Shown here one piece after another: positions 15,076 to 57,967 of a stretch of DNA of 64,000 nucleotides (the first letter of the stretch is position 1; every line of letters begins with the position of its first letter). The position numbers and the translations under genes are program-made. The notes under the pieces are model-generated. The model had not been told where the DNA came from and made no database searches. It saw only the letters and a list, made by a program, of their open reading frames with translations. The stretch comes from Candidatus Thiodiazotropha endoloripes (GTDB lineage: Bacteria > Pseudomonadota > Gammaproteobacteria > Chromatiales > Chromatiaceae): positions 310,001 through 374,000 of the forward strand of contig LVKA01000008.1 of assembly GCA_001709035.1 (NCBI GenBank), in the 5' to 3' direction.

Positions 15076-15152
15076 GGCAAGGTAGCTCAGTTGGTTAGAG
15101 CACAGCACTCATAATGCTGGGGTCGGCAGTTCGAATCTGCCCCTTGCTACCA
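15076..15152 (+). tRNA. tRNA-Met (CAT), elongator type
   Basis: A 77-nt cloverleaf. The acceptor arms GGCAAGG and CCTTGCT pair with a G-U at position 1-72. The D arm contains AGCTCAGTTGGTTAGAGC. The anticodon loop is CTCATAA (anticodon CAT) on a five-pair stem CAGCA/TGCTG. The T arm contains GTTCGAATC, and CCA is encoded. The body resembles elongator tRNA-Met more than tRNA-Ile2. The 3' part is repeated twice downstream and is the integration site of both elements. Its native terminator now lies near 57983. Confidence 0.95.
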
Positions 15153-15153
15153 T
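15108..15153 (+). repeat. Attachment core attL of element 1 (tRNA 3' end)
   Basis: A 46-bp sequence running from the anticodon loop through CCA of the tRNA gene, repeated exactly at 48622-48667 and 57922-57967. Identity to the third copy starts earlier, at 15102. It is the crossover region used by both tyrosine integrases. Confidence 0.93.
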
Positions 15154-16922: not shown

Positions 16923-18455
16923 CTAAACCTCAAGCTCAAGATTTTCGTCTGATGGGCGCGTTGTTGTTTCGCCAGTTGCAACGCCTAAATATTTACCGAT
17001 TGCTTCAACATCGTTATGGAGCAAATACCCAATGGCATTGCTCGCTGCTATGCGCTTCATGCCGTCAGCGTCAACCTGGATGCGCATAGAGATGGCCTGA
17101 ATTGTCGGCTCTTCACCGTCAATTTTTTCATCAGAGTCCAACGAATAGCTGTAAACCAGTATCGAGTCGATCTGATCGGGGGTGGCAGATTTTACGGCCT
17201 CAGAAACTCGTTCTTTGTAACGTTTTTGTTGGGCTTGTTCATCGAGCCAGTTTTTGGTTTCCTGCTCGCTTAATCCCGGATCTTCACCGACTGGTTTAGG
17301 ATTGGTTGATGTGGTAGCTGTTGAAGAATTAGGCGGTACTGGATCGCTGTTCTGATCAGGGTCCTGATCGGCCTCTGTGCTTTTAATATCTACCTTTGTC
17401 GCTTCGCACTTCTCCAAGTAACAGGCCGTCTTAGTACAAAACTTACACTCATATCCATTACTCAATCTAGAGGTATGAACGCTTTTGCAGTCTTTGCACT
17501 CTGATTCATAATCGAAAGGGCATGAATAAGGGAACTTTTCGTCATCAAGTTCACCATTTAAGTTACCATCCACATAAGGAAAAACCTGCTCATAAAGATC
17601 GAGGATCTCGGTAGCCATACAGCCAGATGGCGGAGCACTTTTATCATCATCCCTGGTCTTTTTTAACGCCTCGGTTAAATTGTCCAGAATGATTTTATGC
17701 TTGGCATGAACAAGTATTTCTTTGCCATGCGAAGGGGTAAGAAATTCATGTTTGATCATTACCTGGATTTCTGGTGGCAGTTTCCACAATCGCCTGTAAT
17801 TTGTTATTACAGAGCGCGAAAACCCATTGATCCCTCTGGATGCCAGTTCATCAGCAATGGCCTGGTCGGTCATGCCGTCATCATGAAACTGCCGGAATGT
17901 CTCAACCCAATCCCAGGGTTTTAAGGGCTCCCCTGTGTTATCAGCGATCTGACGGAAAATACGCTCATGCGGTGTTTCGGCCTCCTTTACATCAAGCACC
18001 CCCTCAAGGGCTTCAATTTTGCCGATGCAGGCAGCACGCCACCGCCTTTCGCCATGTTTGATAATCAACTGACCATCAACCACAACAAATTTGATCGGTG
18101 TTTCCTGTCCATCTTTACCGAGCGACAGCGCCAGATCTTGAAGGCGGTAGGTATCAAACACCCGACGCGGTTGGTTTTGGTCGCGATTCAGGAGAGAGAC
18201 GGGGATACGGTAAACAATGCCGGGCTTGAGGGTGTCGATCTGTCCCCGCCAGATATCAACCCGGGTGATTTGACCGTTGGTCTCATGCTCGATGATGCTG
18301 GGGTAGTCGGTTTCCGCATCGATGGGGATTCGTCCGGATTTCTCCCAGGTCTTAATTGCGTTTCGTGAGGCAAGGCCGCAAGCCTTGGTCAGTTTTGATA
18401 TACCGACAATCTCAATTGCCTGAGTGACAAGGTTTTGACTGCTCATGGTTACCAT
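16923..18455 (-). CDS. ParB/Spo0J-like nuclease-fold protein, phage type
   Basis: A 510-residue protein. Residues 1-40 look like a Cro-type helix-turn-helix. The ParB N-terminal domain follows, with the HGERRWRAAC box typical of the family, and then the helix-turn-helix that begins near MTDQAIADELASRGI. Around residues 310-350 is a Cys-rich block with four CxxC-like pairs (SECKDCKS, YECKFCTK), a likely metal site. No ParA or centromere-like array is nearby. Possible roles are partition of an episomal prophage form or transcription regulation. It is the main gene of the leftward early operon. Confidence 0.8.
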   Translation of the reverse strand: MVTMSSQNLVTQAIEIVGISKLTKACGLASRNAIKTWEKSGRIPIDAETDYPSIIEHETNGQITRVDIWRGQIDTLKPGIVYRIPVSLLNRDQNQPRRVFDTYRLQDLALSLGKDGQETPIKFVVVDGQLIIKHGERRWRAACIGKIEALEGVLDVKEAETPHERIFRQIADNTGEPLKPWDWVETFRQFHDDGMTDQAIADELASRGINGFSRSVITNYRRLWKLPPEIQVMIKHEFLTPSHGKEILVHAKHKIILDNLTEALKKTRDDDKSAPPSGCMATEILDLYEQVFPYVDGNLNGELDDEKFPYSCPFDYESECKDCKSVHTSRLSNGYECKFCTKTACYLEKCEATKVDIKSTEADQDPDQNSDPVPPNSSTATTSTNPKPVGEDPGLSEQETKNWLDEQAQQKRYKERVSEAVKSATPDQIDSILVYSYSLDSDEKIDGEEPTIQAISMRIQVDADGMKRIAASNAIGYLLHNDVEAIGKYLGVATGETTTRPSDENLELEV

Positions 18456-21986: not shown

Positions 21987-22170
21987 TGCACTACCAAAGT
22001 ATTTTTATGGTGACCCCGCTAACGTGCTTGAGCGTCAGCAGCGATTTGATGTGTATCGGGATAAACGATGTTTGGGCTGTATTAATTGGGATACTACGCG
22101 CCAAACAGACCCTTGTTTATTGAGATTAACACCCGGCAAGAACTGGTGTAAGGGGTTTGATGAGCGATGA
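21973..22170 (+). CDS. Small Cys-containing early phage protein
   Basis: A 65-residue protein with four cysteines after the initiator region (CLGCIN, DPCLLR, NWCKG). The spacing suggests a small metal-binding fold of the kind found in many phage early operons. It overlaps the upstream gene by 14 bp and the primase start by 4 bp (ATGA). Confidence 0.6.
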   Translation: MCMGSALPKYFYGDPANVLERQQRFDVYRDKRCLGCINWDTTRQTDPCLLRLTPGKNWCKGFDER

Positions 22171-23276
22171 CTAAGGGCCTGGACCTATCGCTAGATGATC
22201 TAGCCAACGCACTGGCTGTGATTGATCCAAATGACCGTGAGACCTGGGTTCAAATGGGCATGGCGATTAAATCAGAATTTGGAGAGATGGGATTTTCTGA
22301 GTGGGATGACTGGAGCAGTCAGTCAGACAAGTATAAAGCCAAAGAGGCGAAGACGGTTTGGAAATCATTCAGGCGCGGCGGTGTCAGTATCGGGACTTTG
22401 ATCAATGAGGCGCGCCGCAATGGTCATGAATTCAAGACCGGTGAGCTGACCAAGGAAGAAAAGCGCCAGCGCAAAAAAGAAGCTGAACTCAGGCGCAAGC
22501 AGCGAGCTGAAGAGATCGAGCGTGATGAGCAGGCATTGTTATCCTGGAATAACCGGGTCTCTAAAGCGGTAAACCAATTGATCGAGGATGGTTTTCTCGA
22601 TATTTCCGGCACGTCACCTTATCTGCAAAACAAAAAAGTACGTGCCTATGGTGTGTATTTCGTGCCTCGCGCTTTTCTATGGGTGACTCACATCGATAAG
22701 GAAACAATCGAGATCATTACGGCCCGAAATGAAATCAACCGCTTCTTTGAGAAAAACAAGCGTGGAGAGATTAACCATGAGAGTGTTTCATTCATCTATT
22801 TGAAGCGCGGCACAATAGCGATCCCAATGCGTGATATTGACGGTAAACTGGTAAATGTTCAGTTTATCTTTGCTACCGGAAAGAAGACCTTTCCGAAGTT
22901 CGGGAGAAAGTACGGGCTTTTTCATATCTGCGAAAAAGCTGACAGCGCTGTATCAAAACAACGTCCGGCGATAGCCGGACACCTTATCACTTCTGATGCG
23001 TCAGACATTTGTTTTGCGGAAGGTTACGCAACCGCCGCATCCATCCTGCAGGCCACCGGGTTACCTGTTGTCATCACATTTGATGCCGGCAATATGCCGA
23101 CGGTCGCGGCAGCTTTTAGAGGGGTATATCCAGATTCAAACATGATCTTATGCGGAGATGATGACCAGAAAAATCAAAGCAATGCAGGCCGGGAGAAGGC
23201 TGAAGCGGCTGCAAAGCGAATTAATGGCGTGACAGTCTTCCCAAACTTTTCATCGATACAGGAGACTGCTGAATGA
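22167..23276 (+). CDS. Phage DNA primase-type protein (PriCT-2 plus Toprim)
   Basis: A 369-residue replication protein. Residues 1-80 look like a primase C-terminal type 2 domain (ETWVQMGMAIKSEFG, KTVWKSFRRGGVSIGTL). A charged coiled-coil stretch (about residues 93-125) follows. The C-terminal half is a Toprim domain with the catalytic Glu in FAEGYATAASIL and the acidic pair in CGDDDQ. It overlaps the VapE-type helicase gene by 4 bp, and together they form the replication module. It probably primes DNA synthesis near the repeat array just downstream. Confidence 0.86.
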   Translation: MTKGLDLSLDDLANALAVIDPNDRETWVQMGMAIKSEFGEMGFSEWDDWSSQSDKYKAKEAKTVWKSFRRGGVSIGTLINEARRNGHEFKTGELTKEEKRQRKKEAELRRKQRAEEIERDEQALLSWNNRVSKAVNQLIEDGFLDISGTSPYLQNKKVRAYGVYFVPRAFLWVTHIDKETIEIITARNEINRFFEKNKRGEINHESVSFIYLKRGTIAIPMRDIDGKLVNVQFIFATGKKTFPKFGRKYGLFHICEKADSAVSKQRPAIAGHLITSDASDICFAEGYATAASILQATGLPVVITFDAGNMPTVAAAFRGVYPDSNMILCGDDDQKNQSNAGREKAEAAAKRINGVTVFPNFSSIQETAE

Positions 23277-24763
23277 GCGACAAGGCCCCGACAGACTTTA
23301 ATGATTTGCATGTCCTTGCCGGTCTTGATGCGGTTAAAAAACAAATTGAGGTCGCTGTAAATCAAGCGCAACGCAGTTTTCAAGGGGTAGAAGGGGGTCA
23401 GGGTCAAACTGACTCTGAAATGTTTCTTGAGGAACATCAAATAGATTATGAAGCGCCACCAGATGACCAACCCCCGCTTGATGTTTATGATGATAATCAA
23501 GGTGACGCAATCATTGATCAGCTTTGGTATCGGTCGCTAGATAGGACAGATGGCGGCATGATCAAGCCGCATCTGGCAAATCTTGAGACTATTCTGCTGA
23601 ATGATCATCGTTGGGATGGCGTGTTGGCCTATTGTGATTTTTCTTATCGCATCATGATGAGAAAAACACCGCCTATCGCGGGGATCCCTGGGGAGTGGAC
23701 TGACGGCGATGCGGCCCGGTTAAGGGCTTGGTTTCATCGCAGTTATAAAATGCCGCCACCAGCAAAGACAGAGATCGGTGACGCGATTTTGATCGCATCT
23801 CAACGGCATCGCTTTCACCCTGTGTGCGAGTATCTGCAAAAGCTTCGCTGGGATGGCAAGCCAAGGGTCGAGCAGTGGTTAAGGTGTGTGTTTAATCCCT
23901 CTGAGCCTAACGAGTATTTATCGCCGGTGGGTAAAAAGTTCTTGATTGGGGCGGTTGCTAGAGTCATGCGGCCTGGCTGCAAGATGGACACGGTGCTCAT
24001 CCTTGAGGGGGAGCAGGGAAAGGGTAAGTCTACCGCTGCAGCGATATTGTTCGGTGATTGGTTTTCGGATGCGCCGATACCGATTGGTGAAAAAGATGCT
24101 TATCAGGTGATTCAGGGCGTGTGGGGGTTGGAGCTGGCTGAATTGGATAGCTTTAACAAAGCTGAGACCACCGCTGCGAAAGCGTTTTTTTCACAGACCA
24201 AAGATCGATACCGGCCGAGTTATGGGCAGAACGCTCAGAACTTTCCAAGGCAAACCGTTTGTCTGGGCACAACGAACCAGGATGAATACCTCAAAGATTA
24301 TTCCGGTAACCGTCGTTACTGGCCGGTGAGGTGCCGAAAGGTAGACACACAGTGGCTAAGAGACAACAGGGATCAACTGTGGTCTGAGGCATTCACGCTT
24401 TATCAGTCCGGTGAAAACTGGTGGGTATCCAATGAAGCCGACCGGGTCTTGATCGAGGATCAACAAGATCATCGGTTGCAGCGTGACCCATGGGAAGAGC
24501 GATTAGTTGAGTTTTTATCCAGTAACACAGGGCAATACTACTCGGCTTACCAATTGCTGACAGATGCAATCGGCATGGATGCGCCGCACATTCAGCGGGC
24601 ACATCAAAACCGAATCGCGCCGATCCTGAAAGCAATCGGCTGGAATAGGGAAAGGAAGCTACTACCGGATCCACTGAACCCGAGCAAAAAGACTCAGCAG
24701 CGGGTCTATGTGCGCCCCGTTGAGATGGATCAAGATGATCCATTTCAGGGAATAGAGCCATGA
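23273..24763 (+). CDS. VapE/VirE-type P-loop protein, replication helicase
   Basis: A 496-residue protein of the virulence-associated E family, which serves as a replicative ATPase in many phages and satellites. The Walker A is LEGEQGKGKST (about residue 245) and the acidic Walker B-like segment is WGLELAELDSF. The family segment NRRYWPVR follows. The C-terminal 110 residues probably mediate DNA or partner binding. It is translationally coupled to the primase gene. Its end is immediately followed by the octamer array. Confidence 0.88.
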   Translation: MSDKAPTDFNDLHVLAGLDAVKKQIEVAVNQAQRSFQGVEGGQGQTDSEMFLEEHQIDYEAPPDDQPPLDVYDDNQGDAIIDQLWYRSLDRTDGGMIKPHLANLETILLNDHRWDGVLAYCDFSYRIMMRKTPPIAGIPGEWTDGDAARLRAWFHRSYKMPPPAKTEIGDAILIASQRHRFHPVCEYLQKLRWDGKPRVEQWLRCVFNPSEPNEYLSPVGKKFLIGAVARVMRPGCKMDTVLILEGEQGKGKSTAAAILFGDWFSDAPIPIGEKDAYQVIQGVWGLELAELDSFNKAETTAAKAFFSQTKDRYRPSYGQNAQNFPRQTVCLGTTNQDEYLKDYSGNRRYWPVRCRKVDTQWLRDNRDQLWSEAFTLYQSGENWWVSNEADRVLIEDQQDHRLQRDPWEERLVEFLSSNTGQYYSAYQLLTDAIGMDAPHIQRAHQNRIAPILKAIGWNRERKLLPDPLNPSKKTQQRVYVRPVEMDQDDPFQGIEP

Positions 24764-24776
24764 TTGGTGTGGATAT

Positions 24777-25004
24777 TTGCCAACGTTGCCAACCTCTTCA
24801 AGGTAGGTTGGCAAGCCCGAAACCCGCGCCACACAAGGCCATTGCCAACGTTGCCAACCTTGCCAACCCCCTCACGTGTACGCGCACGCGCGCGTGTATG
24901 TGTGTATTACCCCGTTGGCAACGTTGGCAAGGTTGGCAAGTAATAAGAGATTCAAAGACTTATGTATTGCCAACCTCAAAAACATAGGTTGGCAAGGTTG
25001 GCAA
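24777..25004 (+). repeat. Array of 12 TTGCCAAC/GTTGGCAA octamers, candidate phage origin
   Basis: Forward copies start at 24777, 24786, 24842, 24851, 24860 and 24967; reverse copies start at 24807, 24914, 24923, 24932, 24988 and 24997. Within runs the period is 9 bp. There are three inverted units, 2+1, 3+3 and 1+2. The central unit is symmetric about an alternating purine-pyrimidine tract of CG and CA/TG steps (about 24873-24905). It lies directly after the primase and helicase genes. Open frames across the array are probably not translated. Confidence 0.88.
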
Positions 25005-25313
25005 ATGGAGTGGGATAGGCCAGATCGCTATTACCTGAGGTCAAATATGGATTATGTGATCTCGGCGGCCAAGGTGAATGACCGCTGGAAATTTACAGCT
25101 CACGGACCAACCGCTGAATGGTGGCGTGAGTATCGAGGCTGGATTATGGGCAAGCAATCAAACCCACCGCCTGCAGCTGGCGTTAAAGTCAGATATCAAC
25201 GTGGTGAGCCCCAACCGGCTAAGCGGGAATGGTTAGGAACATTTGACGATACCGAATCAGCAAAGCAGCAATGTGAGGAACACTGGAGACAAAGCAACGA
25301 TGACGCAGCATAG
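25005..25313 (+). CDS. Hypothetical phage protein
   Basis: A 102-residue protein starting at ATG 25005, immediately after the last octamer. The longer in-frame extension would be translated from the repeat array and is unlikely. It is rich in Trp and Arg (WKFTAHGPTAEWWREYRGW). Its end overlaps the next gene by 14 bp. Function unknown; the position between origin-like repeats and the late-control gene suggests a replication or regulatory accessory. Confidence 0.6.
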   Translation: MEWDRPDRYYLRSNMDYVISAAKVNDRWKFTAHGPTAEWWREYRGWIMGKQSNPPPAAGVKVRYQRGEPQPAKREWLGTFDDTESAKQQCEEHWRQSNDDAA

Positions 25314-54438: not shown

Positions 54439-55271
54439 AGCGACTGGCCAGCGATGATTTCATCAACTGTCTTTACGTGCTTGGAGTTCTGCAAATCCAG
54501 AGTACCGGATCTCTTAACTAGTTCGTCTTCCCAACGTCTTCCGGAAAGCCATCCCTGCGCCCATTTAACTGCCGGACCTTTTTCTCCTTGCTTTGTTCTA
54601 GTTTGTACCTCGTGTTTGGCCGCGGATATAATTTTCGAAAATAGGTCTTTGGTCACTTTTGAATCAATCCAGGCATCCGCTGCTTCAGCCTTACCTTTTT
54701 TGTAGTCAAATGTTTCCCAGAACTGATTGAACCATTCAAGTTGTTGACCTTTGAGTTTTCTTCCGCGCTTTGTGCTGTAGGACTCTTTCATCCGCTCATC
54801 AGACAGAACAGCATCGCTAGATGCGGTTAACTTGTTCTTGCCTTGTTCAATACCTTGTTCGGGTGACTCGTCGGTCAAGGGTAGGAGGACACGTAGGTCA
54901 GGGGTATGGGGCTCTATGGTCAGGGGTGGCTCACGAGTCAGGGGTGACTCCTCGGTCAGGGGTGACTCCTCGGTCAGGGGTGACTCCTCGGTCAGGGGGA
55001 TTAAGACATAGTTGTTAGTAAATTTAGATGCACCACCCTGACTTCGGACCGCCGAAATTACACCCAATTTTTCGAGGTCATTTATTGCTCGATTAATTGA
55101 GCGAGGGTGAAGAGCTGTATCTTTCGCTAGTCGACTCCTTGATGGATTGAGTTGCCCAGTCGTCGAGTTCAGTCTGTAGGCTAGGACGACTGCAACCTTG
55201 AACATCGCGGGCTTTAACTCCGACATTTTACTAAGGTCAAATAGCCAATTCAGGCGCTCAATTGGGCTCAC
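54435..55271 (-). CDS. Phage-type replication initiator (HTH, O-like)
   Basis: A 278-residue protein. The N-terminal winged helix (about residues 15-90; SRSRLAKDTALHPRSINRAINDLEKLGV) is followed by a linker containing the SPLTEE repeats and a C-terminal helical domain with WFNQFWETFDYKKGKAEAADAW and WLSGRRWEDE, both typical of phage replication proteins. The start is GTG 55271, overlapping the upstream stop. It would bind its own in-gene repeats and load the DnaB-type helicase. Confidence 0.85.
   Translation of the reverse strand: MSPIERLNWLFDLSKMSELKPAMFKVAVVLAYRLNSTTGQLNPSRSRLAKDTALHPRSINRAINDLEKLGVISAVRSQGGASKFTNNYVLIPLTEESPLTEESPLTEESPLTREPPLTIEPHTPDLRVLLPLTDESPEQGIEQGKNKLTASSDAVLSDERMKESYSTKRGRKLKGQQLEWFNQFWETFDYKKGKAEAADAWIDSKVTKDLFSKIISAAKHEVQTRTKQGEKGPAVKWAQGWLSGRRWEDELVKRSGTLDLQNSKHVKTVDEIIAGQSL
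54874..54998 (+). repeat. 18-bp direct repeats inside the rep gene (candidate satellite origin)
   Basis: GTCAGGGG occurs at 54897, 54919, 54937, 54955, 54973 and 54991, and a one-mismatch GTCAAGGG at 54874. The last five copies are spaced exactly 18 bp, and units 54937-54990 are near-perfect copies. The repeat encodes the hexapeptide SPLTEE on the minus strand. Iterons within an O-type gene are the layout of lambda ori. Confidence 0.8.
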
Positions 55272-57915: not shown

Positions 57916-57967
57916 ACAGCACTCATAATGCTGGGGTCGGCAGTTCGAATCTGCCCCTTGCTACCAT
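57916..57967 (+). repeat. Attachment core attR of element 2
   Basis: 52 bp identical to 15102-15153, six bases more than the copy at 48622. It includes the anticodon loop, T arm, acceptor end and CCA of the tRNA gene. Host sequence resumes to the right. Confidence 0.93.

Follow-up and report, generated by a model that had tools for sequence, protein, structure and literature searches.

A mirror-symmetric iteron array behind a VapE-type helicase gene as a very probable prophage replication origin with an alternating pyrimidine-purine core

In Candidatus Thiodiazotropha endoloripes, a prophage carries an array of short repeats in both orientations directly behind its primase and helicase genes, mirrored around a segment in which pyrimidines and purines alternate. 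Is such an array a replication origin or a large operator, the two readings offered by a preliminary description of the sequence, and what might the alternating segment at its centre do? We address both questions by dissecting the array and comparing it with the DNA behind related helicase genes in other phages.

The array and its prophage

The window, by which we mean the whole stretch of 64,000 nucleotides analysed, belongs to a host assembly of 4.87 Mb in 25 contigs. A scan of the window found a 52-bp identical direct repeat at 15102-15153 and 57916-57967, which encloses a prophage of about 42.8 kb. Two predicted tRNA-Met genes overlap the repeat copies and the left copy adjoins the integrase gene. 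The repeats are probably the attL and attR sites of this 42.8-kb prophage, which is apparently complete. Its genes include those for an integrase, a CI-like repressor, a CII-like activator, a primase, a VapE helicase, a Q-like antiterminator, a terminase and a portal protein. With terminase and portal genes in the same prophage, the carrier is a full phage rather than a phage satellite. The early region also encodes a ParB-like protein of 510 aa on the minus strand (16923-18455; PHROG 1033, E 1.8e-10).

The features around the array are the following:

22167-23276, + strand: primase gene (PriCT_2 + Toprim_3; Pfam PF08707 E=5.1e-21, PF13362 E=7.6e-9; PHROG DNA primase)
23273-24763, + strand: gene of the VapE-type D5-like helicase, proposed initiator (PF05272 E=2.5e-78, 262.9 bits against a cut-off of 25)
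24777-24793, + strand: outer left iteron pair FF (exact octamers)
24786-24814, no strand: left F-R inverted repeat with 10-bp perfect arms TTGCCAACCT/AGGTTGGCAA and a 9-bp loop
24842-24867, + strand: inner left iteron triple FFF, 9-bp period (exact octamers)
24868-24913, no strand: 46-bp core that separates the inverted triples and is proposed as the opening element
24873-24907, no strand: strictly alternating pyrimidine/purine tract, 35 bp without a break (shuffled-core p=0.0005)
24914-24939, - strand: inner right iteron triple RRR, 9-bp period (exact octamers)
24940-24966, no strand: AT-rich right spacer (base composition)
24967-24995, no strand: right F-R inverted repeat with 10-bp perfect arms and a 9-bp loop
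24988-25004, - strand: outer right iteron pair RR (exact octamers)

The array thus lies between the VapE stop codon at 24763 and the next gene, 25005-25313, whose ATG is at 25005. Exact counting found 14 copies of TTGCCAAC/GTTGGCAA in the 64 kb, 12 of them at 24777-25004, six per strand. In dinucleotide-shuffled versions of the window the mean is 3.00 octamers (sd 1.81), and 0 of 100 such versions reach 14. Every one of the six matches to TTGCCAACNTTGCCAAC in the 4.87-Mb host assembly falls within the array. When the 64 kb are scanned in 228-bp segments with 57-bp steps, the top 8-mer counts (10 and 9) are at the array and the maximum elsewhere is 6. In the same scan, the densest repeats outside the origin form a second block at 54861-55008, made of GGTCAGGGGTGACTCCTC units spaced 18 bp.

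The sites follow the order FF-R-FFF, core, RRR-F-RR. The gaps between them mirror exactly (13, 27, 46, 27 and 13 bp), with six sites on either side of an axis at 24890.5. The preliminary description had given the count of twelve octamers, six forward and six reverse, as well as the central inverted unit of three plus three and the position directly after primase and helicase, and our analysis agrees on all of these. It had also noticed the alternating segment, for which its extent of about 24873-24905 is too short by comparison with the unbroken tract listed above. Its proposal that the 9-bp period places the sites on nearly the same face of the helix does not hold: 9 bp amount to 0.86 helical turn, which rotates each site by about 51 degrees relative to its neighbour and off a shared face. 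A more fitting repeat unit is the 9- to 10-bp TTGCCAACC(T).

The core, at 65% GC and alternating, is not AT-rich. Within 130 bp either side of it, the most AT-rich 24 bp (75% AT) start where the right triple ends. At the array GC skew does not turn; in the window it tracks gene direction. The left spacer AAACCCGCGCCACACAAGGCC (24815-24841) is not made of iterons; it is identical in one same-genus relative (L147), differs by one base in another (L148) and may be a further origin element.

Arrays behind VapE genes in other phages

Relatives of the helicase were collected from viral contigs (56 loci), from species genomes (best 80 of 567) and from 195 genomes of the window's order, 6 of which, counting the window's own, gave a match. 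VapE was present in 147 of 149 sequences, which gave 63 representatives under 85% identity, window included, for a first survey. L007 and L008 were excluded from the counts because the stretch examined holds no VapE match; L016, with a stretch past the gene's stop and a downstream window that starts late, was omitted from protein alignments A1 and A2. Further locus collections comprised 77 loci kept of 183, 80 kept of 157, 51 loci and 17 loci.

The preliminary description had pointed to related phages as the place to look for the same array, and it does recur there. The closest same-genus helicases are those of L147 (76-77% identical) and L148 (70-71% identical), and both loci have the array in the same place and on the same plan as the window. 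A Candidatus Thiodiazotropha genome among the best 80 of 567 relatives (L066, helicase 70% identical) equals L148 in sequence over the stretch compared. Farther out the iteron word differs: distant relatives use GACAACC, TGTGACG, GTGGTCA, GTCCCAC, TTCCAAC, TCCGCAC, TGAGTCA and others. At least five exact copies of one word are found 3' of VapE in 39 of the 63 dissimilar helicase loci, window included, the other 24 representatives having fewer than five exact copies of any one word. Among the 39 array loci, 25 have converging inner pairs (FF facing RR) and 10 the full plan F-R-FF/RR-F-R; among the 63 representatives as a whole, 35 have the converging pairs and 12 the full plan, all plan calls being automatic with one mismatch allowed. 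As for location, 38 of 58 loci, counting the window, have all of their densest repeat windows at the VapE 3' end, compared to 7.2 expected (five of the 63 representatives were too short).

Neighbours in the same orientation are most often 9 bp apart. This spacing is modal in 20 of the 39 first-survey loci, with 8 bp modal in 10, and in 14 of 21 Gram-positive loci hand-picked from 68. The number of sites per arm varies among relatives (six here, five in some) and therefore 2 x 6 is no strict rule. L009 has the same octamer as the window, yet its VapE is only 29% identical over the matched part. L007 and L009 belong to another phage type, with TTGCCAACC(T) iterons and an AT-rich core, and in L007 the gene next after the array encodes a primase-like protein, judged by eye.

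The array region also contains a 75-aa frame, and conservation of an encoded peptide in place of the octamers, or loss of the octamers near the origins of homologous phages, would have spoken against the preliminary description. Neither is seen: the frame is open in L147 and interrupted in L148, where the sites persist, partly as TTGCTAAC, and farther out it is the iteron word that changes. Clear matches to the frame (E<=0.01) among the matches listed are L147, L148 and L015, all of which share the DNA repeats. A coding reason for the array is accordingly rejected as far as tested.

Several functions could be imagined for repeated inverted sites in such a place. An operator or autoregulatory site of the early operon would suit an intergenic array in the early region, and the sites would fit cooperative repressor binding. 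However, the array follows VapE whatever the downstream gene. A relative of gene 25005-25313 (E<=1e-3) occurs in only 8 of the 62 other representatives while the word-changing arrays stand 3' of VapE, and the array therefore appears to go with the helicase rather than with the gene downstream. Furthermore, one promoter-like site is found near the array compared to 0.7 expected. We regard an operator as very improbable, and the comparison, which supports the origin well, lends no such support to the large operator that the preliminary description had kept as its other option; autoregulation by origin-bound VapE may be a side function. A parS-like partition site is a further candidate, given that a ParB-like gene lies in the same prophage and that parS sites can be clustered inverted repeats. 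Yet this gene is 6 kb off, whereas the arrays of relatives stand 3' of VapE, which makes a partition site extremely improbable in our view.

We conclude that the array is very probably the replication origin of the prophage, served by VapE. This reading, drawn from sequence comparison, is based on the symmetric anatomy, the gene order, the recurring word-changing arrays 3' of VapE and the conserved alternation of the core. Counting against it are the absence of a GC-skew turn at the array, the lack of a significant link between iteron word and VapE C-terminal domain, the sharing of the octamer with the distant VapE of L009, the loci that lack a tract of at least 14, the shorter tracts of the closest relatives and the varying number of sites per arm.

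Alternation in the core

The longest alternating tract within 700 nt 3' of VapE has a median of 16 compared to 9 in 606 other windows of the same loci (p 5e-24; 61 loci, window included, two of the 63 representatives being too short). The longest tract of the whole locus sits 3' of VapE in 42 of these 61 first-survey loci, window included, compared to 6.9 expected. Tracts of at least 14 are present in 44 of the 61 loci and absent from 17, against 18 of 613 background windows. The core tract surpasses shuffles of the same core at p<0.05 in 28 of the 38 strong arrays. These counts retain some cores misplaced by automatic core finding; for example, L149 has a 6-bp tract in the chosen gap and a 27-bp tract outside.

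Not every origin candidate has a long tract. The closest same-genus relatives have shorter ones than the window (11 in L147 and 15 in L148), and L009, L127 and L153 have AT-rich cores instead. Among eight named phages, four have a tract of at least 14 (Marinobacter PS3, Pseudomonas vB_Pae_U5, Clostridioides phiCDKH02 and Streptococcus Javan630), shorter tracts are found in Variovorax VarioGold (12) and Staphylococcus QT1 (11), and no tract of at least 11 was found in Corynebacterium IME1320_01 and Escherichia ep3.

For the Gram-positive groups, named after the query phage and not after the hosts of the other contigs, the longest tract was measured in the 500 nt behind VapE. The median is 23.5 against 9 in Clostridioides-type loci and 19 against 8 in Streptococcus-type loci, and the tract is the longest of its locus in 13 of 16 (1.5 expected) and 18 of 19 (1.9 expected), respectively. 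Staphylococcus-type loci have a median of 10 against 8, with the locus's longest tract in 10 of 23 (2.2 expected), and Corynebacterium-type loci 11.5 against 8, with 5 of 10 (1.1 expected); one contig (L360, identical to L377) enters both the Streptococcus-type and the Corynebacterium-type counts, once each. Tracts of at least 14 are absent from 17 of the 23 staphylococcal-type and 9 of the 10 corynebacterial-type loci. Tract enrichment 3' of VapE is strong in the proteobacterial, Clostridioides- and Streptococcus-types and weak in the staphylococcal and corynebacterial types.

Most of these tracts lie between iterons of opposite orientation. Where a locus has at least four exact iterons and its tract reaches at least 14, the two iterons that flank it most closely are opposed in 10 of 12 cases for the Clostridioides-type, 10 of 13 for the Streptococcus-type, 3 of 5 for the Staphylococcus-type and 0 of 1 for the Corynebacterium-type. 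In 9 of the 16 Clostridioides-type loci the tract is 33-35 bp from the nearest left iteron; the iteron words of this type are GTCAACA, GGATACA, GGAAACA, GTAAACA, GGGTACA and GCAACAA (14 of 16 loci assigned).

What is conserved within the tract is the alternation. Transitions make up 70% of tract differences compared to 35% in the flanks for the 16 Clostridioides-type representatives, and 73% compared to 39% for the 19 Streptococcus-type representatives, over non-independent pairs in both cases. A sliding transition profile peaks at the tract. In this test all representatives are retained and one anchor sequence sets the tract columns. Tracts selected by length give 94% and 97% transitions, a partly circular result, and we therefore use the unselected version. 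Since the differences are mostly transitions, the purine/pyrimidine class is kept while the bases change.

Palindromy, or a cruciform, was also considered as an explanation of the core and rejected: none of 79 tracts exceeds purine/pyrimidine-preserving shuffles at p<0.05, and the palindrome arms have a mean of 4.90 in the tracts and 5.09 in the shuffles.

Two further explanations of the tract deserve consideration. The tract may be a mere microsatellite-like or compositional run between functional iterons, and simple dinucleotide-like runs do arise by slippage. But the tracts are irregular mixtures of CG, CA, TG and TA steps, they recur in separate helicase groups, and they combine a pairwise difference of 0.37-0.39 with a share of 70-73% transitions, all of which makes such a run very improbable. 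Alternatively, the core could act specifically as Z-DNA, with VapE hexamers or transcription-driven supercoiling flipping the tract and the junctions or a Z-reader starting the melting. The length of the tract, 35 bp unbroken, speaks for this idea, as does composition: first-survey tracts are 0.14 higher in GC than the loci that contain them (p 2e-7), they have more CG steps (0.52 compared to 0.34), and CG steps are also raised in Clostridioides-type tracts (0.15 compared to 0.05). By a rough energy calculation, the midpoint of the B-Z transition would fall near sigma -0.04 to -0.055. However, TA makes up 0.38-0.60 of the pyrimidine-purine steps in those Gram-positive groups that have tracts, and GC is not raised there. 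The Z-form is unfavourable in TA-rich alternating tracts and therefore is not the shared reason for alternation. Because tracts are CG-rich in Proteobacteria and TA-rich in the Gram-positive groups, the shared feature is alternation itself. A specific role as Z-DNA thus seems to us possible but rather unlikely, while the Z-form that the preliminary description envisaged for the window core is, from its sequence, plausible and not required by the comparison.

Proposed mechanism and known origin systems

How could VapE use such an origin? The AlphaFold2 model of the helicase has a mean pLDDT of 87.7, and its best structural match is 7pds, 'PriRep1 with dsDNA' (Z 34.4, rmsd 3.7, 398 residues), which phmmer also retrieves (E 1.4e-44). 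This entry is deposited as six chains, and we take its PriRep1 to be of the staphylococcal-island kind. In the model, residues 406-480 form a helix, a strand, two helices and two strands, which we read as a winged helix and as the likely iteron-binding part of VapE. Speculatively, the roughly 51 degrees by which a 9-bp step misses a full turn may be seen as near the 60 degrees between the subunits of a hexamer ring.

Iteron words differ even between closely related helicases, as in the Clostridioides-type loci. Across 14 of these with differing words (L159, L260-L262, L269, L273, L278-L281, L285-L287 and L289), the C-terminal domains of same-iteron pairs show hardly more likeness (0.651 compared to 0.637). 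Among 310 columns of this set, the one that follows the iteron word most closely is a residue in 'YGxQRA', with a max-statistic p of 0.12. Taken together, the last 35 columns do not outscore the others. In the first survey, the partial correlation between iteron and C-terminal domain is only 0.17, over non-independent pairs. None of these three comparisons establishes that iteron and C-terminal domain covary.

In the mechanism that we propose, the C-terminal winged-helix domains of VapE would bind the 9-bp iterons and one hexamer would assemble on each mirror-image arm, head to head. The loading hexamers would underwind and open the alternating core, possibly together with the adjoining AT-rich spacer, and the primase encoded just upstream would prime both forks. 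We infer each of these steps, namely binding by VapE, two hexamers, core opening and a bidirectional start, and for the core-opening step we see the chances as about even. We read the core as the opening element because every second step in it goes from pyrimidine to purine, and such steps stack most weakly and are the most flexible.

More generally, VapE-type origins may contain an opening element coded in structure, in which selection keeps alternation and not base sequence or AT-richness and which is opened by a helicase pair, a proposal that we think could equally prove right or wrong. A tract of maximal pyrimidine-purine step density would be opened by head-to-head self-loading helicases, via the Z-form where it is CG-rich; flipping of CG-rich cores to the Z-form under negative supercoiling would be one physical route to opening. 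AT-rich elements are the usual place at which bacterial, plasmid and phage origins are said to open; if the proposal is true, VapE-type origins would be marked and opened in a way unlike the classical AT-rich unwinding element. One helicase, one primase and about 230 bp would then make a small system for studying DNA opening by ring helicases, and would allow one to ask whether non-B DNA functions in bacteria. The alternating core could also serve as a sequence-independent signature for origins in unannotated phages, useful because the iteron words change between close relatives. The alternating core looks to be what is new about the VapE phage origin: we found no description of it for such origins in the open PMC subset, though one may exist elsewhere.

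The closest precedents are origins behind other phage-related helicase genes. A published account of PICI/SaPI elements (PMC6092414) describes an ori directly 3' of the helicase gene, with the primase before it and two iteron sets flanking a presumed melting region. The window origin likewise stands directly 3' of a primase-helicase module and has two iteron sets around a central region (6 + 6, mirrored), and its VapE shares the fold of the solved PriRep helicase (7pds). Unlike these elements, the window carrier is a phage and not a satellite, its array of 12 sites is wholly mirror-symmetric, and its core is strictly alternating at 65% GC whereas their central region is AT-rich. A second precedent is the record of Streptococcus phage Sfi21, which annotates a 302-bp origin (phage-encoded resistance) 3' of a D5-like helicase gene. 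The sequence of this origin has converging iterons 8 bp apart, further copies outside and a 70-bp core of 89% AT, and the element is described in one report (PMC6356513) as an origin activated by infection. As in the window, the origin follows directly 3' of a D5-like helicase with converging iterons around a core. However, the spacing (8 bp compared to 9 bp) and the core (89% AT compared to alternating) differ, and the Sfi21 helicase matches DUF5906/Pox_D5, not VapE.

The better-known systems are more distant. In lambda-type and plasmid iteron origins (O protein, RepA/RepE), the iterons also adjoin the opening element, but they are direct repeats placed to one side of it, the element is AT-rich, and the initiator loads the host DnaB helicase; the window differs in having an inverted arm to either side of its core and a helicase encoded by the phage. 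The origins of SV40 and papillomavirus, which are animal viruses, differ from the window in site number, spacing and core. Papillomavirus E1 is nonetheless among the structural matches of the VapE model (Z about 10), a likeness at the domain level. For SV40 T-antigen, a published account (PMC9894130) describes hexameric viral helicases loading head to head on the origin. By analogy with the PICI/SaPI and Sfi21 precedents, the array would be an origin of this kind that belongs to a VapE phage and differs in its alternating core.
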